This document shows positions 11,963 through 33,682 of a stretch of 46,810 nt of DNA, piece by piece. Where the stretch lies: contig JAKIUY010000023.1 of NCBI GenBank assembly GCA_021647315.1, positions 1 through 46,810 on the forward strand. The letters run 5' to 3'. Each line of letters begins with the position of its first letter. Within the stretch, counting starts at the first letter, position 1. The notes under the pieces are model-generated. The model saw only the letters and a list, made by a program, of their open reading frames with translations. It was not told where the DNA came from and made no database searches. The stretch comes from Victivallaceae bacterium (GTDB taxonomy: Bacteria > Verrucomicrobiota > Lentisphaeria > Victivallales > Victivallaceae). The position numbers and the translations under genes were made by a program.

Positions 11963-12135
11963 GAATTGTTTTGGTATCATCTCTATTTCCTACAGATAAA
12001 GATTTCTGAAGTTGCTATACCACCTGTATAGTTTTTCACAAAAAGCCGGACAGTTAGGATATTTCAAGCTTAAGATACTTGACATAAGCTGAGTGAAGTC
12101 TATATTCAGAGAGATAATAATAAGGCAAATATTTG

Positions 12136-13335
12136 ATGGGTATTCATAAGTATAAAATTTCAGACGCGACAGGCGCAATTCGTGAAATCGTAATTGAAGG
12201 AGATTCGGAAGCGGATGCCCTGAATAGATTACGTCGTCGCGGCTTAACCCCATTGCGTTACCTGGGAACAACCTCAGGCGAGTCGCAACAGGCAAGCCGT
12301 TTCAGTTTGCGTAAAAAATTCAATGTTTATGATTTTACCGACCGTCTGGCTCCACTGCTCAAGGCTCATATCCCACTTGAACGGGCTTTGGAGATTATTG
12401 CATCCGGCATAACAGAGTCCAAGGAACGGGAAATAGTTATTTCACTGCGTCGCGGTCTGCATGAAGGAAAAAAGTTTTCCGAATTAATCCGCAACAGTGA
12501 AGGGGGCTTCCCACGCCTCTACGCCAATCTGGTTGAAACTGGCGAAAGTACCGGTTGCCTGCCTGAAATTATTTTAGAGTTGCAGCGTTTCATGAACGAA
12601 AGCCGTGGTATGAAAGAGTTTATCATCAGCAGTTCAATCTATCCACTGATTATTCTTTCAGTTTCATTCGGAGTACTTATTCTTATTTTTACAGTATTCA
12701 TACCGCGATTTTCAAAGGTTTTCATTGATATGGGCAAAGAGCTGCCACTGTCAACAACAATATTAATGGAAATCGGGAATTGGGTAATTGCATTATGGTG
12801 GATATGGCCACTGTTGATTATCAGTGCCGTGATACTGCGACAACGAATTAAACACGATACCGTTATGCGTTACCGCTGGGATGGTTTTGTTTTAAAACTA
12901 CCACTGCTGGGCAGTATGATAGCAGCCACCGATATGAACCGTTTTATCCACACTACCGCAATTCTGCTGAAAAATCATGTCAAGCTGCTCGATACCGTAG
13001 AAATAGGTCAACGGATAATCCAGAATTCATATATTAGAAAAACTTTCAACGGTCTTAATCAGGAACTTAGAAATGGCGTTCCGCTCTCCGACGCACTAAA
13101 GAAAAGTCCCTATATGCCGACTGATGCGGTTCAGATGCTGAAGGTTGGCGAAGAATCTGGGGCAATGGGCGAAATGCTCGGGGAAGCTTCAGAAAACCTC
13201 AATAACCGGATGAAGGTAAAAGTACAACGTCTATTAGCACTGTTTGAGCCAGCAATAATTTTAATGCTGGCCTCCATCATCACAATGGTGGTACTGTCAA
13301 TATTTATGGCTATTATGGAGATGAATGAGTTGTAG
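12136..13335 (+). CDS. gspF: type II secretion platform protein GspF
   Basis: Polytopic inner-membrane platform protein that works with GspE. At 399 residues it has the normal family length. After a short N-terminal region it has two repeated GspF domains (about 68-190 and 270-395), each with the helical signature (LAPLLKAHIPLERALEII and the equivalent TTAILLKNHVKLLDTVEIG), and transmembrane segments near 170-195, 218-238 and 375-398. A TTG sits directly before the ATG; ATG at 12136 is preferred, with an AAGG upstream. Confidence 0.93.
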   Translation: MGIHKYKISDATGAIREIVIEGDSEADALNRLRRRGLTPLRYLGTTSGESQQASRFSLRKKFNVYDFTDRLAPLLKAHIPLERALEIIASGITESKEREIVISLRRGLHEGKKFSELIRNSEGGFPRLYANLVETGESTGCLPEIILELQRFMNESRGMKEFIISSSIYPLIILSVSFGVLILIFTVFIPRFSKVFIDMGKELPLSTTILMEIGNWVIALWWIWPLLIISAVILRQRIKHDTVMRYRWDGFVLKLPLLGSMIAATDMNRFIHTTAILLKNHVKLLDTVEIGQRIIQNSYIRKTFNGLNQELRNGVPLSDALKKSPYMPTDAVQMLKVGEESGAMGEMLGEASENLNNRMKVKVQRLLALFEPAIILMLASIITMVVLSIFMAIMEMNEL

Positions 13336-13349
13336 GGCTTGGGGCTTGG

Positions 13350-13374
13350 ATGCAGCCTGCGGCTTCCAGGCGCA
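13350..13374. repeat. stem-loop after gspF
   Basis: Inverted arms ATGC-A-GCCTG and CAGGC-GCAT around a seven-base loop. No T-tract follows, so this is probably a palindromic repeat. The region up to gspG then contains GTGTTTAGTG / TTTTCGTGGTTAAA-type sequence of the kind found in intergenic repeats. Confidence 0.55.
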
Positions 13375-13510
13375 TCGGCAATCTATTAACCGCTGTTTTC
13401 GTGTGTTTAGTGCTTTTCGTGGTTAAAAATATTTTGGGTTACGACTTTGCAACTCTAAGTCTATAATAGATGTAACGATAAAAATTGTAAAAAATTAAAG
13501 GAATAAAATT

Positions 13511-13948
13511 ATGAAAAAACAACAGACATCAAGATCAAAAAAACAAAGAAGAAGCTATTTCTCATTGATGGAGATTATCGTGGCTTTGGCAATTATTGCC
13601 CTACTGGCTTCAATTGCCACCCCGCTCTATTTCCGTCACCTGCGCAAAGCTAAAATCAGCACCGCAAAATCTCAGATTAGAATGTTCGAACAAGCTCTAG
13701 TCGACTACCGGTTGGATGTCGGGAAACTGCCTGATGAATCAAATGGTTTAAAAGCCCTGGTTGAAAATGTTTCAGGTGATGAAAAATGGGATGGCCCTTA
13801 CCTTAAACGGCTGCCGCTGGATCCATGGAGTAATGATTATATTTATACTATTCCCGGAGAAAACAGTGAATATGAAATCAAAAGTTATGGCAGTGACGGT
13901 CAACCCGGCGGTGAAAAAGATGCCGCCGATATTAGCAGCAATCAGTAA
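13511..13948 (+). CDS. gspG: major pseudopilin GspG
   Basis: Main subunit of the T2SS pseudopilus. The 145-residue precursor has a basic leader (KKQRRSY) and then FSLMEIIVALAIIALLASIATP, with Glu at +5 of the mature protein. The C-terminal part is diagnostic: LPLDPWSNDYIYTIPG and SYGSDGQPGGEKDAADI form the calcium-binding loop. The residue before the predicted cleavage point is Tyr, not the usual Gly. Confidence 0.94.
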   Translation: MKKQQTSRSKKQRRSYFSLMEIIVALAIIALLASIATPLYFRHLRKAKISTAKSQIRMFEQALVDYRLDVGKLPDESNGLKALVENVSGDEKWDGPYLKRLPLDPWSNDYIYTIPGENSEYEIKSYGSDGQPGGEKDAADISSNQ

Positions 13949-14064
13949 TTGCATTATTTAGCTAGGACGCCCAATAAAAAGTCTGTACTCCAACAAAAAA
14001 CAACATCTGCATAATCTTTTTGTGTAACGTCGGACAATAGTCTCTATAATCGCCAAACAGTATT

Positions 14065-14589
14065 ATGATAAAAAGATATAAAAAACGATATTTTTCACTG
14101 CTTGAACTGATTGTCGTGATTGCGATTATCATGCTGGTCGCAGGCATCACAGTCAGTCAGGTCGGACGCTTGCCATCCTTTGCTTCACTGGAGAACAATG
14201 CCTTCCAAGTCAAAGCACTTTTTATTGCCGCCGGACTGCGCGCAACATCAACCGGGACAGCGCAAACTATAACCTATTCAACAACAAGCCATACTTTTAC
14301 TCTGGACGAAATGACGGTTGACGATGAAGCAATGCCAAATAAAATAATAGAATTCAGTTTGACCAACGGTGCGCAAGCTACATTTTATGCTATTAACGAC
14401 TCAACCATACCTGCAGCCGAAACCGGCAATCCAGGTGACGCGACATTCACCTGTTTCCCTGATGGCCTTATTTCCGGCCCGGATATTGAGCTTAAACTAC
14501 GCAAACACAGACTGAAAATGCACATTTCCCCCCTTACAGGTGCAATAAGAATTATCCAACCAGACAGTGACGGGGAGTATAAATTATAA
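14065..14589 (+). CDS. gspH: minor pseudopilin GspH-like
   Basis: A 174-residue class III prepilin. The leader MIKRYKKRY is followed by FSLLELIVVIAIIMLVAGITVSQVG and a beta-rich C-terminal domain of GspH/FimT type. Position between gspG and gspI supports the minor-pseudopilin role. It has Tyr at the -1 cleavage position. The stop codon overlaps the gspI ATG by one base (TAATG). Confidence 0.8.
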   Translation: MIKRYKKRYFSLLELIVVIAIIMLVAGITVSQVGRLPSFASLENNAFQVKALFIAAGLRATSTGTAQTITYSTTSHTFTLDEMTVDDEAMPNKIIEFSLTNGAQATFYAINDSTIPAAETGNPGDATFTCFPDGLISGPDIELKLRKHRLKMHISPLTGAIRIIQPDSDGEYKL

Positions 14590-15020
14590 TGACAAAACGG
14601 ACAAAACGGATATTGCCGGAATATCGAACATCAGACGTACTAAAATTTACGATGATTGAAACCGTCATTGCACTCGGGGTACTGCTACTTGCCATGTCTG
14701 CGGTATTCGGTACCATCGCGGCATCTCAACAACGGGTTATCAGAGCCGAAAAGAGATGGGCGAAACAGCACATGTTAACCCAGGCAGCCGAGTATTTTCT
14801 CCTTGCACCGCCAAGAACGACAATACCACAGACAATTTTTCCTTTCAGCGACTACCAGGCTTTTTGCGAGTACAGTGAGCCTAAAGAGTTACCTGAAACA
14901 GTCGATGCAATCAGCGGCAGTTGGAAACTGGTGGCAATGAAAATAATTCTGAACTCTAATGCGGATGGCAAAACAGTCAATTCCATCACTTTGGACCGGA
15001 TAGTGAAAACTAACGACTAA
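14589..15020 (+). CDS. gspI: minor pseudopilin GspI-like
   Basis: A 143-residue protein with a 20-residue leader ending LK before FTMIETVIALGVLLLAMSAVFGTIAASQQ, then an amphipathic helix (AEKRWAKQHMLTQAAEYFLL) as in GspI. It would form the pseudopilus tip with GspJ and GspK. Lys occupies the -1 cleavage position. Its TAA stop is supplied by the ACTAACG array that begins at 15009. Confidence 0.8.
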   Translation: MTKRTKRILPEYRTSDVLKFTMIETVIALGVLLLAMSAVFGTIAASQQRVIRAEKRWAKQHMLTQAAEYFLLAPPRTTIPQTIFPFSDYQAFCEYSEPKELPETVDAISGSWKLVAMKIILNSNADGKTVNSITLDRIVKTND

Positions 15021-15071
15021 CGACTAACGACTAACGACTAACGACTAACGACTAACGACTAACGACTAACG
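15009..15071 (+). repeat. nine perfect ACTAACG heptads over the gspI stop codon
   Basis: Nine uninterrupted copies of the 7-mer ACTAACG. The first copies encode the last residues of GspI, and the TAA at 15018-15020 ends it. Because seven is not a multiple of three, the array places a stop in every reading frame. The gene-free stretch 15021-15382 consists of this array, the inverted ACAGGAT element and the three-hairpin element. Confidence 0.97.
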
Positions 15072-15098
15072 GTTATAATGAAATATTTTAACTTAATA

Positions 15099-15230
15099 GG
15101 AAATTGTATTTAAACAGGATAAACAGGATAAAGTAAAAAAATCTTGTCAATCTTGCGTGTCTCGCCATAGCTCGAAGAGTGACGGTTGGTTAATCCTGTC
15201 TAAAAAGTTCCGGCAAAGCCGGTTATATTT
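15099..15230 (-). repeat. ACAGGAT-type dispersed repeat, copy 3 (inverted, with insert)
   Basis: Reverse complement of the element at 11805-11904, running from GGAAATTGTATTTAAACAGGAT to TAAAAAGTTCCGGCAAAGCC. It carries an extra ~38 bp at about 15153-15190 (GTGTCTCGCCATAGCTCGAAGAG) absent from the other two copies. That insert resembles the sequence just past the ispF stop (221-247). Confidence 0.85.
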
Positions 15231-15274
15231 AAAACTACTGGAAACAGTTCATGATTTTATGGAACGAAAAACCA

Positions 15275-15367
15275 GCTCTGCAAGAGCGAAATTCAATAGT
15301 CCAGGGCAACCCCCTGGGTATATGGTTTCCAAAAGTAAAACAAGTTCTGAAAGAACAAAATAAAATT
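15275..15367 (+). repeat. three-hairpin repeat, copy 1 (upstream of gspJ)
   Basis: Three stem-loops in a row: GCTCT-GCA-AGAGC (15275-15287), CCAGGG-CAACC-CCCTGG (15301-15317) and GTTCT-GAA-AGAAC (15344-15356), separated by GAAATTCAATAGT and a T/A-rich spacer. It matches 16135-16224 in order, spacing and linker sequence. Confidence 0.9.
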
Positions 15368-15382
15368 AGTCTGTTCAAACAG

Positions 15383-16024
15383 ATGCGACTTAAGCCACAA
15401 AACTTTACTTTACTTGAAGTTGTTCTGGCTCTGGCAATTTTTATGCTGGTTACCTCGATCGCGGTCATGGCTCTAACTTCGACCGGACGTACCTTGCGCA
15501 AAGTAACCGCAGCTGACAAACGCCTGGAAGAACGGCAACTGATCGACCGTCTGGTCAACCGAGCCTTTAAAAATGCCGTAAACTTCACCTGGCAAGACAG
15601 TAATCTGCAACAACAAATGATATTCAGCGGCAAACAAAACGAACTGCTGATCTGTTACCTGCACCGCATCGATCCGGCTAAAAATTCAGCTATCCGTTTT
15701 CTGAAATTATTTATGGATGAAGACAATTTGATGGCAGAATACAGTGCTACACCAATACTGCCATGGCTGAACAGCCCAGAAACCGCAACTCGTGAAGTTA
15801 TCGCGACCGGCATCAGCAATCTCTCATTTTCCTATGCCGACATCGACCAGACCTCTAAACAGATAAACATCGTAGGTAACTGGGATAACGAAACTACGCC
15901 ATATATTCCTCCTGGTATCCAGCTCGAATTGGAATGGCAAGACGGCACTACAGATGTCTGGTTCCGCAGAACGGCCGGTGCTGGCTATGGACAGCAGTTA
16001 GGACGCAGGAGGTATAAACAATGA
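15383..16024 (+). CDS. gspJ: minor pseudopilin GspJ-like
   Basis: Minor pseudopilin of the tip complex. From the ATG at 15383 the product is 213 residues: leader MRLKPQN, then FTLLEVVLALAIFMLVTSIAVMAL and a GspJ-type beta domain with a WQDGTTDVWFRR C-terminal strand. The frame is open upstream to an ATG at 15251, but that segment is encoded by the three-hairpin repeat, giving a 51-residue leader; 15383 has no good ribosome-binding site, so the start is uncertain. Asn is at the -1 cleavage position. The stop overlaps the gspK ATG (ATGA). Confidence 0.82.
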   Translation: MRLKPQNFTLLEVVLALAIFMLVTSIAVMALTSTGRTLRKVTAADKRLEERQLIDRLVNRAFKNAVNFTWQDSNLQQQMIFSGKQNELLICYLHRIDPAKNSAIRFLKLFMDEDNLMAEYSATPILPWLNSPETATREVIATGISNLSFSYADIDQTSKQINIVGNWDNETTPYIPPGIQLELEWQDGTTDVWFRRTAGAGYGQQLGRRRYKQ

Positions 16025-17256
16025 GAAAAAGATCTACCCCACGGACTAAATGGTATTCGAAAAGGTTCTTGAGTTCATCTGGCACGAATAATGAATCTTT
16101 GAATTTCATGGTTTCACCATTTGCATATCAATTAGTGCTGAAAGCACAAAATTCAATAGCCTGGGGTAAAACCCCAGGTAATATTCAGAAGAAAAATATA
16201 GCTCTGAAGGAGCGTAATAAAGTTAGCGTTGAACAGCCCTGCTCTTTCACCCCTTTCAAAAAGGATTCAACTGATAAAAACAACCAGGGGATTGCCTTGA
16301 TTGCGGTACTCGGTATCTTGCTGTTAATTACCCTGCTCACGCTGAGCATTATTACGGTATCCAAGATATGCGCATTAAGAACCGCCGGAAACAATATTAA
16401 TGAACGTTCAATGTTACTGGCTGAAGGTGCGGTAAACCGAATATATTGGATACTGATGAGTGATCGGAAGAACTTTAAAAACCGCCTGATGGGAGAAACA
16501 GATTATACAGCTGAAGAGACTAAACGGCTGATGGCGGACGGGGTTATACATGAACTGGATTATTACAATGGCAAAGCAGAATTCTCTATATATGATATGC
16601 AATCAGGCCTGCAAGTCAACGGCAGATCACCGGGGCGCGAGCTGAACCAACAGCTAAACCAACCGTTAATTACTGAATCCCGAAAAAATGAGCTGGAGAT
16701 ATTCCGTAACCGCCTGCTCGATTATACCGACAGCGATAGTTTAATCCGCCTGGATTCACTGGAAGCAGGTGACTACAGTGAACTTGATATGTCCCCACTG
16801 CCCCGTAACCGGGCAATGGAATTCAGGGAAGAGGTGCTTTATATCCCCGGCAAGAAAGATTTTTTCACAATAGATAAAATCGGCCGATTGAGTTCAGTCG
16901 CGCTGATCGCACCACGGGGATTGCGCCAGCCGAATATCCGAAAACCCAATATTTTTAATTCATCTGAAAAGACTATTACGGCCACAGCAAATTTATCAGC
17001 CGGTGAAAGTGAAACAGTAACTGCCGCGCTCAATGCGTGGTATAAACAAAAAACTCCACTTAGCGAATCACTTGACGCGCTCCTGCTCAGCAAACTGAAA
17101 CAGTATTTTTCATTTGCTGAATCCGGTTATTATACGATTATCGTTCGCGCCTCATCCAACCCGGAGTTTCGCGGTATACCATTAGCAGTTTCAATCAGAA
17201 TCACCGAAACAATTCCGTTATCCGGCCGTAATTTTTACGAATGGACTCTTTATTAA
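16021..17256 (+). CDS. gspK: minor pseudopilin GspK with an enlarged leader
   Basis: Capping minor pseudopilin. The start at 16021 is secure: AGGAGG lies eight bases upstream and the ATG overlaps the gspJ stop. The leader is about 90 residues, ending NNQG before IALIAVLGILLLITLLTLSIITVS; GspK leaders are usually about ten residues. Residues about 39-68 are the translation of a three-hairpin repeat. The mature part has a GspK-type helical (SAM-like) region with LLDYTDSDSLIRLD and a C-terminal beta domain. Unlike the other pseudopilins here it keeps Gly at -1, and it lacks Glu5, as is normal for GspK. Total length is 411 residues. Confidence 0.88.
   Translation: MRKRSTPRTKWYSKRFLSSSGTNNESLNFMVSPFAYQLVLKAQNSIAWGKTPGNIQKKNIALKERNKVSVEQPCSFTPFKKDSTDKNNQGIALIAVLGILLLITLLTLSIITVSKICALRTAGNNINERSMLLAEGAVNRIYWILMSDRKNFKNRLMGETDYTAEETKRLMADGVIHELDYYNGKAEFSIYDMQSGLQVNGRSPGRELNQQLNQPLITESRKNELEIFRNRLLDYTDSDSLIRLDSLEAGDYSELDMSPLPRNRAMEFREEVLYIPGKKDFFTIDKIGRLSSVALIAPRGLRQPNIRKPNIFNSSEKTITATANLSAGESETVTAALNAWYKQKTPLSESLDALLLSKLKQYFSFAESGYYTIIVRASSNPEFRGIPLAVSIRITETIPLSGRNFYEWTLY
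16135..16224 (+). repeat. three-hairpin repeat, copy 2 (inside gspK)
   Basis: GTGCT-GAA-AGCAC (16135-16147), CCTGGGG-TAAAA-CCCCAGG (16160-16178) and GCTCT-GAA-GGAGC (16201-16213). The linkers AAATTCAATAGC and AATAAAGTT match copy 1. It is in frame with gspK and is translated. Confidence 0.9.
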
Positions 17257-17640: not shown

Positions 17641-20427
17641 ATGACTAAAAAAATATTTGGCGTCACTTTATGCCTCACCGTACTTGGAATATTCCTCTCA
17701 CCCCAGCTTAAAGCGGGAAAAATAGTTCAAAAAAATGGCAAAACCACCATTTACGTCAAAAGCATGATGCTTCCCGATCCATCAAAAACCGATACCGCCT
17801 CCCGAGCCGATGTCGAAGTAGTCAAAGCATTCGTCAAAAAATTCCCCGCAATTTTTGCTAAAAAATATCGGGCACTATATAAAACTGATCCGAAAAAATA
17901 TGGAAAATACGATTGGAATAATGTTGAAATTCAAATGGAACGTTTTTCCGGTATCAAAGTTGAAGGCGTTGAAAACGACCTGCTGGCGATTGCCGGTGGT
18001 ATGGCACCGGATATACTTTATATTAACTTCCGTAAATCTGATAACTACATCCGTAACGGCTTTATCTATCCCCTGGATCAATACTACAATAAACTTACTC
18101 CCAAACAGCGTGAATGGTTAATTAATCCAAAAATTCTACCAGTAGTTTACCGTAAAGGGCCGGATGGGAAAAAACATTACTGGACCGTTCCTTACGGTGG
18201 TGCACTGGGCAAAGTACTGCTCTACCGTAAAGATTTGTTCGATGCAAACAATATTCCATATCCAACCAAAAACTGGACGTGGGAAGACCTCTATAATGCA
18301 TCAAAAAAACTGACAGATCCAGCTAAAGGGGTTTATGGTATCCGTTTTGGGCAAGGTAAACATGAATCATGGTTCTGGATTACCTTCTTGTGGTCTGCCG
18401 GTGGCGATGTGATGACCTACGATGAACCGACTGATACTTGGACTTGTACCTATGGATCGGATGCCGGAGTCAAAGCGTTAGACTTTTACATCCGGCTTAA
18501 TCAGGAAAAATGGGTAGATGAAAATAATAAAGTCCGTCGTGGTTATTCCTATAAAGATGCCAGTCAGGCCGGCGTAAAATGGGATCGCGGTGAAATCGGC
18601 ATGCAATTTGCCTATATTGAAGAAAATCTAATGTCAAAAATGGATCCAGAAACAGTTGGATTATGTCCAGTACCAAAAGGTCCGGGCGGTAATCGCGGGG
18701 CTGAACTTAACAGTCGTATGCAGGGATTGTTCTCCGAGATCAAAGATGTTGCGGTTCGCGATGCAGCCTGGGAGTTCCTGCTCTACTTCAGTAGTAAAGA
18801 AGCACAAGAAATAAGAACTAAAGTAATGGTTGAAGGTGGCTTCGGTCGTTTCATCAACCCGAAATACCTGAAAATGTTCGGTTATGACGATATCATTAAA
18901 TTAACCCCCAAAGGCTGGGCTGAAGCCTTTAAAATTTCTATTGATACCGGTAAACCTGAACCTTATGGTAAAAACAGTAACTTTGCCTATGAATTAATGA
19001 CCAAACCGCTTCAGGAAGCTCAGGAGCTTGAGCGTAAAGATCAACTGCCACGGGAAAAATTGGCTGACGGGCAACCCAAACCATATAAATTGGGTGAGAT
19101 GAGCAAAGAACGTTACGAAATACTGAAAAATATTCTCTATGCTTCAAACGACCGGGCTAAAGAGATTATGATTGGAACCATCACGCCACAGGAAAAAACC
19201 AAGCGTCGGGTGCTGGCAATTCTTGGTCTGGCAATGATTGGTCTTGGCTTCTTCTTTGTTTTCAGAAAAATATTCCGTATCTTCACGCCACCAGAAGCTG
19301 ATGGCTCAAAAGGGGCAAGCTGGGCATTCAAAAAACATAAATGGGCCTATATCATTTTGATTCCGGCAGCTCTGTCTATTTTCACTTGGCGCTATATCCC
19401 ATTGGCCCGTGGTTCATATATGGCATTTTTCGATTATAAAATCCTAGGCAACTCAATCTTTGTCGGTGTTGATAACTTCGGAAATCTACTGGTTGACAGC
19501 GTTTGGTGGCGTTCGGTCTATGACGCCCTGCGTTACAGCTTCCTCACCATGTGTATGACTTTCCTACCGCCGATTATCCTGGCGATCTTCCTCCAGGAAG
19601 TGCCTAAAGGTAAAATCTTTTTCAGAACAGTCTTTTATCTTCCAGCAGTTATTACTGGCTTGGTAACCATGGTACTATGGAAACAGTTCTACGAGCCTTC
19701 AGAAACTGGCATGCTCAATAAACTTATCCTTAATGTTCCGGCAATTGGTTTTATCGCGATTGGCTTAGCCCTGCTACTAATATGCTTGGCATTTGCCAAC
19801 CGACTGCGTTTCTACGAAATGTGGCTGGCCAGCGCATTCTTTGTCCTAGCAGGACTGATGCTGTTCGTGACCATTGCCAGTTTGGCAAATCCTATCCTGT
19901 TCCAAGCCAACGAAACCTTTATGGAATCAATGAAATTGATGGGCGGGCGGATGTTCGCCTTTACGCCTGAACCATATCGTTGGTTACAGGATAAAAATAC
20001 CGCAATGTTATCATGTATCATGCCGATGGTCTGGGCAGGCATGGGACCGGGTTGTCTGATCTATCTCGCGGCACTGAAAGGTATTCCTGAAGATTACTAC
20101 GAAGCCGCTGACCTTGACGGCGCGACTTTTATTGATAAAATTCTTTTCGTTGTTTTCCCAACCTTGAAAGCACTGGTTATCATCAACTTTGTCGGTGTAT
20201 TTATCGGTTCATGGATCCGTTCAACCGGAATGATCCTGGTGATGACTGGAGGGGGAGCTAATACTGAAACTGCGGGGCTGCATATTTGGTACAAGGCATT
20301 TACCTATCTTCAATTTGGACCGGCAACCGCGATGGCCTGGACACTAGGCTTTATGCTGATCGGGTTTACCGCTTATCAGTTACAGATACTGTCTAAGGTT
20401 GAGTTCAAAACTACGGGTAAAAAATAA
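17641..20427 (+). CDS. sugar ABC importer: binding protein fused to a MalF-type permease
   Basis: Carbohydrate ABC uptake. The 928-residue chain has a signal peptide (1-25, ending LKAGK), a family-1 extracellular solute-binding domain (about 35-500; DILYINF, VPYGGALGKVLLYRKDLFD, WTWEDLYNASKKLT, GEIGMQFAYIEE), one transmembrane segment (about 523-541), a cytoplasmic linker and a MalF-type permease (about 567-920) with EAA loop EDYYEAADLDGATFIDKILFVVFPTLK (817-843). An extra hydrophobic pair at about 702-745 interrupts the permease. Usual systems use two separate polypeptides of 420 and 300 residues. The frame is continuous and an AGGAG site precedes the ATG. No ATP-binding subunit gene is nearby. 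Confidence 0.93.
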   Translation: MTKKIFGVTLCLTVLGIFLSPQLKAGKIVQKNGKTTIYVKSMMLPDPSKTDTASRADVEVVKAFVKKFPAIFAKKYRALYKTDPKKYGKYDWNNVEIQMERFSGIKVEGVENDLLAIAGGMAPDILYINFRKSDNYIRNGFIYPLDQYYNKLTPKQREWLINPKILPVVYRKGPDGKKHYWTVPYGGALGKVLLYRKDLFDANNIPYPTKNWTWEDLYNASKKLTDPAKGVYGIRFGQGKHESWFWITFLWSAGGDVMTYDEPTDTWTCTYGSDAGVKALDFYIRLNQEKWVDENNKVRRGYSYKDASQAGVKWDRGEIGMQFAYIEENLMSKMDPETVGLCPVPKGPGGNRGAELNSRMQGLFSEIKDVAVRDAAWEFLLYFSSKEAQEIRTKVMVEGGFGRFINPKYLKMFGYDDIIKLTPKGWAEAFKISIDTGKPEPYGKNSNFAYELMTKPLQEAQELERKDQLPREKLADGQPKPYKLGEMSKERYEILKNILYASNDRAKEIMIGTITPQEKTKRRVLAILGLAMIGLGFFFVFRKIFRIFTPPEADGSKGASWAFKKHKWAYIILIPAALSIFTWRYIPLARGSYMAFFDYKILGNSIFVGVDNFGNLLVDSVWWRSVYDALRYSFLTMCMTFLPPIILAIFLQEVPKGKIFFRTVFYLPAVITGLVTMVLWKQFYEPSETGMLNKLILNVPAIGFIAIGLALLLICLAFANRLRFYEMWLASAFFVLAGLMLFVTIASLANPILFQANETFMESMKLMGGRMFAFTPEPYRWLQDKNTAMLSCIMPMVWAGMGPGCLIYLAALKGIPEDYYEAADLDGATFIDKILFVVFPTLKALVIINFVGVFIGSWIRSTGMILVMTGGGANTETAGLHIWYKAFTYLQFGPATAMAWTLGFMLIGFTAYQLQILSKVEFKTTGKK

Positions 20428-20556: not shown

Positions 20557-22476
20557 ATGGGTATTATTTCAACAATCGGCAGAAGACATATTAAAGTACA
20601 GGCTTTAATCTGGTCTATAACGATATTACTTATCCTCGGTGGTATCACCATGGTCTATCCGTTTATGCTAATGATCGCCGGTAGCTCAAAAAGTGCAGTG
20701 GATGTTTCGGAGACCAGCATTATTCCAGCATTTCTAACCGAAGACAAAATGCTCTATCAAAAAACAATCCAGGGGCTTTTCAATGAATTAGGTCAAGCAG
20801 TTCAGTCAACCTACGACATCAATAACGGTGACTTTAAACAGTTACAGTTACCTGAAGATGACAATAAAATTCTGACTGGGGAATGGGTTGATTTTATTAA
20901 AAGCAAAGATTATCCGTTCTTTTACTACGGTCTGGGATTCACTGAAACTCCAGTGTCAAAAATGTCACAACCGGTAAACCTACGCAAATTCAAACAGAGT
21001 CTTTATGATAAATATAATAGTGACATCAATACGATGAACGATGCGCTTGGCACTGAATACATAGCCTGGAGTGATTTTTCACAACGTAAAGCATTCTACC
21101 TCACCCGTCGTGATATGCCTAATAACCAAAATGAACAGGATAAGCTCTACTGGAAGTTCAAATCAGAACAGCCATTGCCAATGCGCTTCTACTTTTCACC
21201 TGAAGGTTTTTATAAAACCGTTTTCTTACGGGCTCAATACACTAAATATATAGAAACCTATAACAAAGACCATAAAAGTAACTATAAGAGCTGGGATGAG
21301 ATTACCTTTCCGCGCCGTTATCCAACGGGAAAAGAGTATACTGACCTTGAACGCAGCGACTGGGAAGATTATGTCAGAACTATCCTTAATATGCTCTGGA
21401 TTAGAGTTGACAAAAAAGAGCTCGGCAATTACCAACATTTTCTGAAAGCAAAATACTCTAAAATTGCTGACTTAAATAAACTTTATGGTACAAAATATAA
21501 ATTTCACAACGAAATTCCATTGATTACCCAAATCAAATTTTCCGGTAAAGCCATGGTTGACTGGGCGACATTCATTAGTGGCTGGTATGATCCTATCACC
21601 CAGAAAACCTATAAAGTACCGGTTGAATCACTCTATATCAACAGTGCCGAAAATGATTTCAGAGATTACCTGAAGAAAAAATATGTAACCATCACTGAAC
21701 TGAATAAAAAAATGAACAGTTCATATAAAGGCTGGGACTATATCTTCCCCCCACAGCAACAATACCACTATGAATACATTAAACTTCATAAAGGAGCGTT
21801 GCGCTGGGAATTCGTTAAACGTAACTTCATTGCGGTTTCTGACTATATTCTGCTCCACGGACGTGGGGTATTCAATACTTTCCTCTATTGCGGACTGGCA
21901 ATTTTGGCGGCCTTGATCGTCAACCCGCTGGCAGCTTACGCACTGAGTCGTTTCAAGCCACCATCAACTTATAAAATTCTGATGTTCCTGATGCTGACCA
22001 TGGCATTCCCGCCAATGGTTACCCAGATCCCGAACTTCCTGCTCCTGCGTGAATTTGGTCTGCTGAATACCTATGCCGCCCTGATTCTGCCGGGACTGGC
22101 TAACGGCTATTTAATCTTCCTGTTGAAAGGTTTCTTTGACTCACTGCCACAGGAACTCTATGAAAGTGCTCAGATTGATGGTGCCAGCGAATTCCGCCTG
22201 TTCTTTCAGATTACGATGAGCCTGTCAAAACCGATTCTCGCGGTTATCGCTCTACAGACATTCCAGTTCGCCTACTCTAACTTTATGATGGCGTTACTGC
22301 TCTGTCAGGATCAGAAAATGTGGACCTTGATGCCATGGCTCTACCAGTTGCAGATGCGCAGTAATCCGGGCATTATTTTTGCCTCACTGCTGATTGCGGC
22401 GATGCCGACCTTCTTAGTGTTCGTCTTCTGTCAGAACATTATCATGCGCGGTATCGTAGTACCGGTAGAAAAATAG
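20557..22476 (+). CDS. MalG-type sugar ABC permease with large repeated insert
   Basis: Second permease of the importer. Membrane segment 1 is at about 18-40, and the permease core runs from about 432 to 635 with EAA loop LPQELYESAQIDGASEFRLFFQI (530-552). Between them lies an unusual soluble insert of about 380 residues, predicted outside the membrane, where MalG proteins normally have about 30-60. The insert holds four related units with the pattern L..KY..I..LN...G..Y..W..I..P; the KY (or QY) pairs fall at 152, 227, 299 and 375, a spacing of about 75. A W-x-x-[FY]-[IV] segment recurs between them (W110, W269, W336, W417). Total length is 639 against the usual ~280. An AAGGA site precedes the ATG. 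Confidence 0.9.
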   Translation: MGIISTIGRRHIKVQALIWSITILLILGGITMVYPFMLMIAGSSKSAVDVSETSIIPAFLTEDKMLYQKTIQGLFNELGQAVQSTYDINNGDFKQLQLPEDDNKILTGEWVDFIKSKDYPFFYYGLGFTETPVSKMSQPVNLRKFKQSLYDKYNSDINTMNDALGTEYIAWSDFSQRKAFYLTRRDMPNNQNEQDKLYWKFKSEQPLPMRFYFSPEGFYKTVFLRAQYTKYIETYNKDHKSNYKSWDEITFPRRYPTGKEYTDLERSDWEDYVRTILNMLWIRVDKKELGNYQHFLKAKYSKIADLNKLYGTKYKFHNEIPLITQIKFSGKAMVDWATFISGWYDPITQKTYKVPVESLYINSAENDFRDYLKKKYVTITELNKKMNSSYKGWDYIFPPQQQYHYEYIKLHKGALRWEFVKRNFIAVSDYILLHGRGVFNTFLYCGLAILAALIVNPLAAYALSRFKPPSTYKILMFLMLTMAFPPMVTQIPNFLLLREFGLLNTYAALILPGLANGYLIFLLKGFFDSLPQELYESAQIDGASEFRLFFQITMSLSKPILAVIALQTFQFAYSNFMMALLLCQDQKMWTLMPWLYQLQMRSNPGIIFASLLIAAMPTFLVFVFCQNIIMRGIVVPVEK

Positions 22477-31679: not shown

Positions 31680-32657
31680 ATGGCAGTTACTTTATCAGAT
31701 ATTGCACGATATACCGGAAATTCTATTTCGTCGGTATCTGCTGCCCTGAAAAATAACAATAGCACGGCAAAAGTATCACCGAACAAACGGGAACATATAT
31801 TAGCGGTAGCCAAGCGCATGGGGTATCGTCCTTCACATGCGGCTCAGGTTTTAAAAAACGGGCACACGCATGTCCTAGGAATGGTAATAGGCGAAATTCA
31901 TACGCCATTTTATGGAGAAATGACCAGTTTATTGATGGAAGAGGCTGAGCAGCATGGTTATAATATTCAGATTTATGTAACAAACTGGGAACACAAACGG
32001 GCAAATGAAGCGATTGACCTGCTACTTGGTGGGCGGTGTGATGGTATTCTTTATTTTGAAGGTAATTTAAACAAAGCTCCATTCATTATAAAAAATAACA
32101 TACCGACCATTGCGCTGTCAAATCAAATTATGGGTTTAGCCTATATTGGCGAAGATTATAAAAGCGGCTTCCTTGAAACCGCAGAATACCTTGTTGCAAA
32201 AGGGATTAAGAACAGTGTTTTTATTGGCGATCAAGTGACAAATTTCAGTCGTCCAAAACTTAAAGCAGTAAAAGAAGCTTTTGCTGAATATGGACTGGAT
32301 TTAGAATTTACTGAATGCCATAACAGTCAGGAATTGGTCTATAATTTCGGACTTAAATTCAAGAGTCTGGATAATAACCCGGAAGTTATTTTAACTGAAA
32401 ATGACACGTTAGCTACAGCGTTGCTTAAAGGGCTATTCGATGCAGGCGTTAAAGTACCAAATGAGGTTAGTGTAATTGGCTACAATGATACTGACTATAG
32501 CAAATATTGCAGTCCGTCACTGACAACAATTGGTTTTGATAAACAAGCTTATGTAAAAACTGCCATTGACTTAATGATAAAAATGATAAATAAAGGAGAA
32601 TTGCTTATGGATGAAATCATGTTTCCAACATTTTTTAAAAAACGGGACAGTGCCTGA
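31680..32657 (+). CDS. LacI-family transcriptional regulator
   Basis: A 325-residue sugar-responsive regulator. The N-terminal helix-turn-helix (VTLSDIARYTGNSISSVSAALKN) and hinge (GYRPSHAAQVLKNG) are followed by a periplasmic-binding-protein-like effector domain (LGMVIGEIHTPFYGEM, GRCDGILYFEG, SVIGYNDTDYSKYCSPSLTTI). The recognition helix differs from the usual V-S-x-x-T-V-S-R pattern, reading ISSVSAAL. Two identical operators precede it, implying autoregulation together with control of the GH36 gene. The effector is unknown. Confidence 0.95.
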   Translation: MAVTLSDIARYTGNSISSVSAALKNNNSTAKVSPNKREHILAVAKRMGYRPSHAAQVLKNGHTHVLGMVIGEIHTPFYGEMTSLLMEEAEQHGYNIQIYVTNWEHKRANEAIDLLLGGRCDGILYFEGNLNKAPFIIKNNIPTIALSNQIMGLAYIGEDYKSGFLETAEYLVAKGIKNSVFIGDQVTNFSRPKLKAVKEAFAEYGLDLEFTECHNSQELVYNFGLKFKSLDNNPEVILTENDTLATALLKGLFDAGVKVPNEVSVIGYNDTDYSKYCSPSLTTIGFDKQAYVKTAIDLMIKMINKGELLMDEIMFPTFFKKRDSA

Positions 32658-32833: not shown

Positions 32834-33682
32834 ATGAAAGTTTTAACATTATCAACAACCAAAACAACAACCCCAAACATAGGAGATTTCAACATGAAAT
32901 CAAGCAAAACAACAACCCCAAACATAGGAGATTTCAACATGAAATCAACTAAAACAACAACTGCCCGTATGAGGGAATTCACACTCATAGAGCTATTGGT
33001 AGTAATAGCTATTATTGCCATCCTTGCAGCAATGTTATTACCGGCACTGAACCAGGCTCGGGAGAAGGCAAATCAAATATCATGTCTGAATAACGAAAAA
33101 CAGATTAGTTTAGGGTTGAATATGTACACATCAGATAATGATGGCTATTATCCTTCCCCTGGAGAAGCATGGTCCCCAACCCGAAGTTGGACAATACTAT
33201 TGATTACGAACGGCTATATGAAAGGGTGTAAGAATCCCGACGGCAGCATAGCGCCATCGGTTTTTGCCAATAAATGTCCTAAGAATGTAAATTACACGGC
33301 TGCCAATCGGCAGAGATATGCAAACCCTTACCAAATAAATGGAGAAACAACATGGGGTGCAGGAGGGGCGAACCCCCACACTGGACTTGCAGGCATGAAG
33401 CGTAGCAGGATTAAACAGGCTTCAGCGACAGTAGAATTTCTCTGTGGTGGTTATGCCCCTAGCACTAATGGAATAGTTTTTGCGATTAAAGACCAACGCT
33501 ATATGGCTGGAACTTATAACCCAAATACCAACAGGATATTTGGTGAATGGCATAATGATTTTATTCCGACATCTTTTTCCGATGGTCACGCCAAATTGAT
33601 CAATATCAGGGAATATACGGTTAATAGTGGCCCAGAAGGCGAGGCTATCTGGAAAAAATATTTTGAAACGTTAAATAGATAA
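32834..33682 (+). CDS. type II pseudopilin-like protein with H-X9-DG motif
   Basis: Member of the large PVC-type prepilin family. The core is [31 protein letters not shown] followed by a C-terminal domain ending in [17 protein letters not shown], which contains the H-x9-DG signature. The coordinates give the longest form (282 residues). Two further in-frame ATGs at 32894 and 32939 each have AGGAG at the correct distance because a 45-bp unit is duplicated; the ATG at 32939 gives a conventional 13-residue leader and is probably the ancestral start. Glu is at the -1 cleavage position. It lies in the glycan cluster, away from the T2SS operon; function unknown. Confidence 0.88.
32862..32951 (+). 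repeat. 45-bp direct duplication carrying a ribosome-binding site and ATG
   Basis: Two head-to-tail copies, each containing AACAACCCCAAACATAGGAG and then ATTTCAACATGAAATCA, nearly identical, with a partial third (AAAACAACAACT). Because 45 is divisible by three, the frame is preserved. Confidence 0.95.

Follow-up and report, generated by a model that had tools for sequence, protein, structure and literature searches.

In the E. coli CUT1 importer MalFGK2-MalE, one of the two permeases carries a large periplasmic loop, MalF-P2. According to PMC3150292 it comprises residues 91-271, and part of it is in direct contact with MalE; studies of how MalE binds MalF P2 and MalG P1 are cited there. The insert between MalF TMS3 and TMS4 corresponds to the MalG TMS1-2 loop (PMC3654945). 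A different arrangement, a binding domain covalently tied to the permease, is found in GlnPQ and OpuA, which belong to other importer families. These two have a homodimeric permease, and we know of no repeat array in either. Here we describe a CUT1-type system from a Victivallaceae bacterium that shares its permease folds, its coupling region, a CUT1-type binding domain and probably a MalK-type ATPase with MalFGK2-MalE. In both systems, one of the two permeases has a large periplasmic loop in the equivalent topological position. In contrast to the E. coli importer, however, the large loop lies in the MalG-type subunit and is made of repeats, none is present at the MalF-P2 place, and the MalF-type subunit carries the binding protein as a fusion, a covalent tie of binding domain to permease as in GlnPQ and OpuA. 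Neither a CUT1 binding-protein-permease fusion nor a repeat insert in a MalG-type permease was described in the literature our search could reach, most subscription journals lying beyond it.

The window, by which we mean the whole stretch of 46,810 nucleotides analysed (contig JAKIUY010000023.1), contains the following features, all on the forward strand.

17641..20427, +, partner protein of 928 aa, a fusion of a solute-binding protein with a MalF-type permease (SBP_bac_1 at 114-390, E 2.6e-22; BPD_transp_1 at 726-909, E 4.5e-5, below cut-off; UgpA model E 9e-17, below equivalog cut-off)
17719..19176, +, CUT1-type binding domain of the partner, residues 27-512
19186..19281, +, membrane anchor joining the binding domain to the MalF part, residues 516-547 (helix 516-547 in the model, hydrophobic sequence)
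19339..20415, +, MalF-type permease domain of the partner, residues 567-925 (model; alignments to SugA and AlgM1)
19729..19962, +, hydrophobic two-helix insertion of about 77 residues following core TM3 in the MalF part, residues about 697-774 (gap in the SugA/AlgM1 alignments; helices 701-724 and 728-753)
20557..22476, +, MalG-type permease of 639 aa that carries the five-unit periplasmic insert, ATG start
20590..20682, +, TM1, residues 12-42 (helix 12-42 in the AlphaFold model; MalG alignment)
20683..21858, +, periplasmic insert, the TM1-TM2 loop, residues 43-434 (model and MalG alignment; sidedness from MalG topology)
20743..20934, +, degenerate unit U0, residues 63-126 (helices 63-74, 79-86 and 104-116, strand 124-126; HHalign with U3 78%, other pairs weak)
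20974..21192, +, unit U1, residues 140-212 (repeat alignment, HHalign, model)
21199..21408, +, unit U2, residues 215-284 (repeat alignment, HHalign, model)
21412..21639, +, unit U3, residues 286-361 (repeat alignment, HHalign, model)
21646..21786, +, unit U4, residues 364-410 (PF02449 match 352-403, repeat alignment, HHalign, model)
21859..22473, +, permease core TM2-TM6 with coupling (EAA) region, residues 435-639 (Pfam, family models, PDB relatives, AlphaFold model)

Residues 461-631 of the permease match BPD_transp_1 (PF00528) at E 4.2e-13, above the Pfam cut-off, and the protein scores E 2e-21 against the UgpE model and E 2e-17 against the MalG model, both below the equivalog cut-offs. SugB, MalG and AlgM2 are its nearest PDB sequence relatives, with matches that start at residue 438; the permease core dominated the result lists of PDB searches with the whole protein. 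When the AlphaFold model was aligned to MalG, an alignment that begins at model residue 12 and chain residue 7, TM1 and TM2-6 were paired and the insert was left unpaired. The permease has the six-helix MalG fold of the CUT1 MalG type and departs from the norm of a short TM1-TM2 loop by an insert of 392 residues; we therefore class it as a variant of that type. A sequence-only reading of this DNA had placed extra residues between TM1 and the permease core, as the model and the MalG alignment do, and its suggestion that they face outwards is supported by the periplasmic position predicted from the MalG fold.

The same reading had counted four repeats in the insert. We aligned the permease (P0001) with 90 of 120 listed homologues (alignment A1, 91 sequences; long, partial and some near-duplicate homologues were omitted) and compared slices of the resulting profile by HHalign, with 60 shuffled controls per pair. 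An internal repeat signal, on which that reading had staked its claim, is present: U1-U4 are mutually alike at 90-98% HHalign probability, and each pair beats all 60 shuffled controls. A comparison in a different HHalign mode, with the unit borders shifted slightly, gave a weak U1-U2 match of 10.4% (42.3% for the core part). The four units thus stand, but the count is five, with U0 degenerate. We recognised U0 because slice 45-114, meant as a control, matched U3 at 78%; the U0-U3 score was 29.2 against a shuffled maximum of 17.8, U0 was weak against the other units, and in the genome's permease paralogue it was reached by the unit profile only at E 0.17. In the confident AlphaFold model, a single helical element recurs five times across the insert, as judged from secondary structure, and helix 412-433 after U4 leads into TM2. 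The insert is accordingly predicted to be a well-folded helical array, not the disordered segment that the sequence-only reading had named as its refutation. Several unit residues (N161, N236, N307, N383, W110, W269 and D335) are invariant or nearly so in the 91 sequences, and conserved aromatics recur along the insert (W110, W171, W269, W281, W343, Y228 and Y300). An N76-E77 pair (window 20782-20787), in the degenerate U0, is also near-invariant, at 89 and 90 of 91.

Pfam finds Glyco_hydro_42 (PF02449) at permease residues 352-403 (E 2.4e-6; 27.6 bits, cut-off 21), a match that spans only profile positions 138-194 of 376. A profile, A3, was built from 61 units, 4 belonging to the window and 57 taken out of the 63 at 16 loci, and searched against PDB sequences. 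Its best matches were the beta-1,2-glucosyltransferase/beta-galactosidase 7vkx (E 5.5e-6) and the beta-agarase 4bq4 (E 1.2e-5); it also matched residues 158-198 of the beta-galactosidase 1kwg (E 3.3e-5), 3voc, the GH167 entry 9whd and several other beta-galactosidases including 8ibs at 173-215 (E 0.006), among others. Up to E 0.24, 24 of the 25 rows were named glycosidases or the 7vkx glycosyltransferase, the exception being 6ptm, an 'Uncharacterized protein', and nine weaker rows up to E 10 mixed beta-amylases, a glucosaminidase and unrelated proteins. In the genome to which the window belongs, A3 recovered both permeases. Four other proteins matched at E 0.0025 or better and a fifth at E 0.016. 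All four non-permease proteins carry a GH42 Pfam match, two of them also GH35, and each has one unit. The resemblance to GH42 enzymes claimed from the sequence is therefore borne out, as a profile made solely of permease units picks out glycosidases of solved structure and four GH42/GH35-type proteins of the genome.

In two of these four enzymes (L094 and L096), an Asn-Glu pair lies about 19-27 residues before the unit; in L094, a GH35/42 protein, both unit halves align, 27 residues after Asn-Glu. Across the 91 permease sequences, we found no conserved Asn-Glu pair before U1-U4, the only such pair being the one inside U0. Nor was a Glu conserved in more than half of the sequences found within the 22 residues before U1 and U4, and the only ones in that span before U2 and U3, E216 (71%) and E270 (67%), do not belong to an Asn-Glu pair. 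In GH42 beta-galactosidases and their kin (1KWG, BiBga42A, beta-agarases 4BQ4, and 7VKX), moreover, the unit is single-copy, with about 33 to 58 profile positions matched, and has a catalytic context, whereas the permease units are tandem and sit in a transporter, without barrel or catalytic pair. Judged by its PDB and genome profile matches, the unit is a helical arm of a glycosidase, related to GH42 and kin. The earlier notion of a carbohydrate-enzyme-like module thus survives as an arm and not as an enzyme module, since no barrel is predicted and U1-U4 lack the preceding pair. According to PMC10688820, Trp-200 and Phe-221 of BiBga42A, at the tips of long domain A helices, complete the substrate site of the neighbouring subunit. 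To judge by these residues, the region of the glycosidase arm seems to work in trans in a GH42 enzyme; the 8ibs match at 173-215 would include Trp-200, if the chain index equals the residue number.

Proteins related to the permease are numerous: at least 4046 match at E 0.001 among 7999 scored, a figure that may include ordinary permeases, and our homologue set is 120 among the matches listed. Fifty of 194 genomes of the same phylum have a permease match at E 1e-60 or better, a single one in 43 of the 50 (at most 6 candidates were scored per genome). By record titles, 80 loci selected by likeness to this permease family come from Lentisphaerota, Kiritimatiellota, other Verrucomicrobiota, Planctomycetota, Armatimonadota, Sumerlaeota and Latescibacterota, with one titled Gemmatimonadetes; taxon labels throughout are the depositors'. 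We counted units with a profile seeded from 16 members, taking matches at independent E < 0.05, some of which are fragments or U0. Among 121 proteins, 110 had four recognised units, 4 had five, 2 had six and 5 had seven, and among the 80 loci, three units were recognised in 5, four in 62 and five in 13. Every locus thus has at least three. The insert is conserved in PVC homologues, a point that the sequence-only reading had set as support for its proposal. Eighteen hand-picked odd-length relatives have 1 to 6 recognised units, each at least one. In P0094 (699 aa), one additional unit adjoins its neighbour and is identical to it at 31 of 63 residues. The extra units of P0007, P0009, P0010 and P0015 (911-929 aa) are separated by alanine-/lysine-rich stretches within the insert that look coiled-coil-like by eye. 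Frame lengths of 1182 and 908 aa in some relatives are overstated, because the open frame continues upstream past the likely start in DNA of high G+C content.

The fused partner that the sequence-only reading had proposed is indeed a binding-protein-permease fusion by Pfam and model, and its MalF part is without a large P2-type loop. The fusion is present as one open reading frame within about 1 kb upstream of the permease in 67 of the 80 named loci. Among the other 13, 10 contigs start too close, in L050 and L070 the two parts lie in separate frames, and L064 gave no match. No partner match was adjacent in 7 of the 18 odd-length relatives. Eight further genomes, seven without an adjacent partner match and one with the partner cut off in the retrieved sequence, all have a partner homologue elsewhere (8 of 8), and the match covered the MalF part only in five of them. 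Two MalK-type ATPase genes lie on other contigs of the genome than the permease, and a MalK-type gene, 65-67% identical to these two, follows the cassette within 16 bp in 2 of the 80 loci (L032 and L039); a MalK-type ATPase probably serves this importer.

The permease and partner genes are conserved as a pair. Of 105 neighbouring ORFs with lengths of 150-1200 aa and no more than 2.6 kb away from the cassette, the 99 belonging to 25 loci were scanned with Pfam, and the remaining 6, all at a 26th locus (L070), were omitted. The count for any one family did not exceed 4, and clustering of 536 neighbours from the 80 loci gave a largest family in 9 loci and no constant third gene. As no neighbour family is shared, the substrate cannot be read from gene context. 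We rejected a glycan-locus reading, which would expect co-located glycosidases, since the neighbours share no carbohydrate locus. Elsewhere in the window, a type II secretion/pilus-like cluster occupies 12133-17256 (+), with T2SSF and T2SSG (Pfam) followed by ORFs whose N termini look prepilin-like by eye, and an Acido-Lenti-1 small RNA (Rfam RF01687; 44.3 bits, gathering 37) lies antisense at 16134-16178 (-) inside ORF 16021-17256. Downstream, a LacI-type regulator (31680-32657, +) is followed at 32834-33682 by a pseudopilin-like DUF1559/SBP_bac_10 protein with an N_methyl match just below cut-off.

We then compared divergence among the parts of 66 cassettes, the window's and those of 65 of the 67 fused loci, two short ones being dropped. 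Mean pairwise identity was 76.1% for the core, 61.4% for MalF, 56.2% for the binding domain, 38.6% for the insert and 34.3% for the two-helix insertion. In partial Mantel tests on pairwise distances, without phylogenetic correction, the insert and the binding domain were correlated with core and MalF held constant (partial r 0.39, 1 in 1000). Quadratic controls gave 0.45 for this pair, ranks gave 0.40 and rate-matched columns gave 0.34-0.39 (1 in 1000 each). Between the insert and its own core, the partial r was 0.02 (p 0.42), with -0.01 and 0.04 under quadratic controls and ranks, but 0.17-0.19 in rate-matched columns. The remaining values were 0.32 for insert and MalF (0.16-0.32 across variants), 0.33 for binding domain and MalF (0.24-0.39), 0.07 for binding domain and core, and 0.57 for core and MalF. 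Against the partner's fast two-helix insertion, the insert gave -0.04 and -0.07; the binding domain tracks that fast-diverging insertion, at 0.32 and 0.36. Divergence of the insert tracks that of the fused binding domain more closely than that of the permease core. Because the insert also co-varies with the MalF part, and with its own core in rate-matched columns, specificity for the binding domain is partial. The binding domain is correlated about as strongly with MalF. The pattern fits an interface between insert and binding domain, as far as sequence divergence can indicate one.

The insert sits between core TM1 and TM2, the topological equivalent of MalF-P2 by the MalG alignment and PMC3654945. 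This position, together with the co-divergence, leads us to favour the array as a docking platform for the binding domain tethered to the partner MalF-type subunit, with a probability of roughly one half. As the MalF part has no large P2-type loop, we infer that the platform has moved from the MalF-type to the MalG-type subunit. The anchored binding domain, unable to diffuse away, would catch the sugar, lean on the periplasmic array and hand the sugar to the channel, and a MalK-type ATPase, here encoded on other contigs, would power transport. Because the enzyme arm already appears to work in trans in a GH42 enzyme, it would lend itself to being copied as a grip on a partner protein or that protein's sugar; the array is not expected to be catalytic. 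Counting against docking, the recognised unit number ranges from 1 to 7, which makes one fixed interface over the entire array unlikely.

Alternatively, the array may be a second surface for binding or guiding glycans, whose arms hold a sugar chain at the channel mouth and pass it to the tethered binding domain. The glycosidase names that fill all but one of the first 25 PDB profile matches point this way, as do the recurrent conserved aromatics and the BiBga42A residues, which serve a neighbour's substrate site from long helices (PMC10688820). These aromatics may, however, be structural, and the neighbouring genes hold no common carbohydrate locus; we regard such a surface as possible but unlikely. 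A relocated docking platform is the simplest reading and a glycan rail the bolder one: a glycosidase arm would have been tandemly copied into a non-catalytic rail that feeds the tethered catching domain, its length tuned by unit duplication, a proposal we find doubtful. Long helices of a GH42 trimer also bear residues that reach the next subunit (PMC10688820), and this, with the varying array length and the coiled-coil-like inserts of the 911-929 aa forms, would suit a scaffolding role, either in oligomer formation or towards another envelope protein, as in transporter pairing or outer-wall anchoring. Such a role is distinctly unlikely, given that no conserved third gene stands beside the cassette (largest neighbour cluster, 9 of 80 loci) and that insert divergence tracks the binding domain.

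The fast divergence of the insert relative to the core would be expected of a passive, tolerated expansion with no role in transport. Near-invariant unit residues in the 91 sequences and the retention of units, at least three in each of the 80 likeness-chosen loci and at least one in each of the 18 odd-length relatives, argue against this, and we consider it improbable. A catalytic, membrane-bound glycosidase is suggested by the GH42 Pfam match above cut-off and by the near-invariant N76-E77, but the match is limited to a short span of the profile, the model is a helical array with no barrel, and N76-E77 lies inside U0, whereas in L094 and L096 the Asn-Glu pair precedes the unit. With the TIM barrel absent from both Pfam span and model, and no catalytic pair before U1-U4, we rejected this reading as highly improbable.

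Collectively, these loci represent a widespread sugar-importer family without a description in the literature that could be searched, and the kinship of its units with an enzyme arm accounts for the GH42 Pfam label on many of these permeases. The system is suited to asking how tethered binding domains find their permease. If the docking-platform reading is true, docking loops of type I importers can shift from one subunit to the other and be rebuilt from enzyme-arm repeats.
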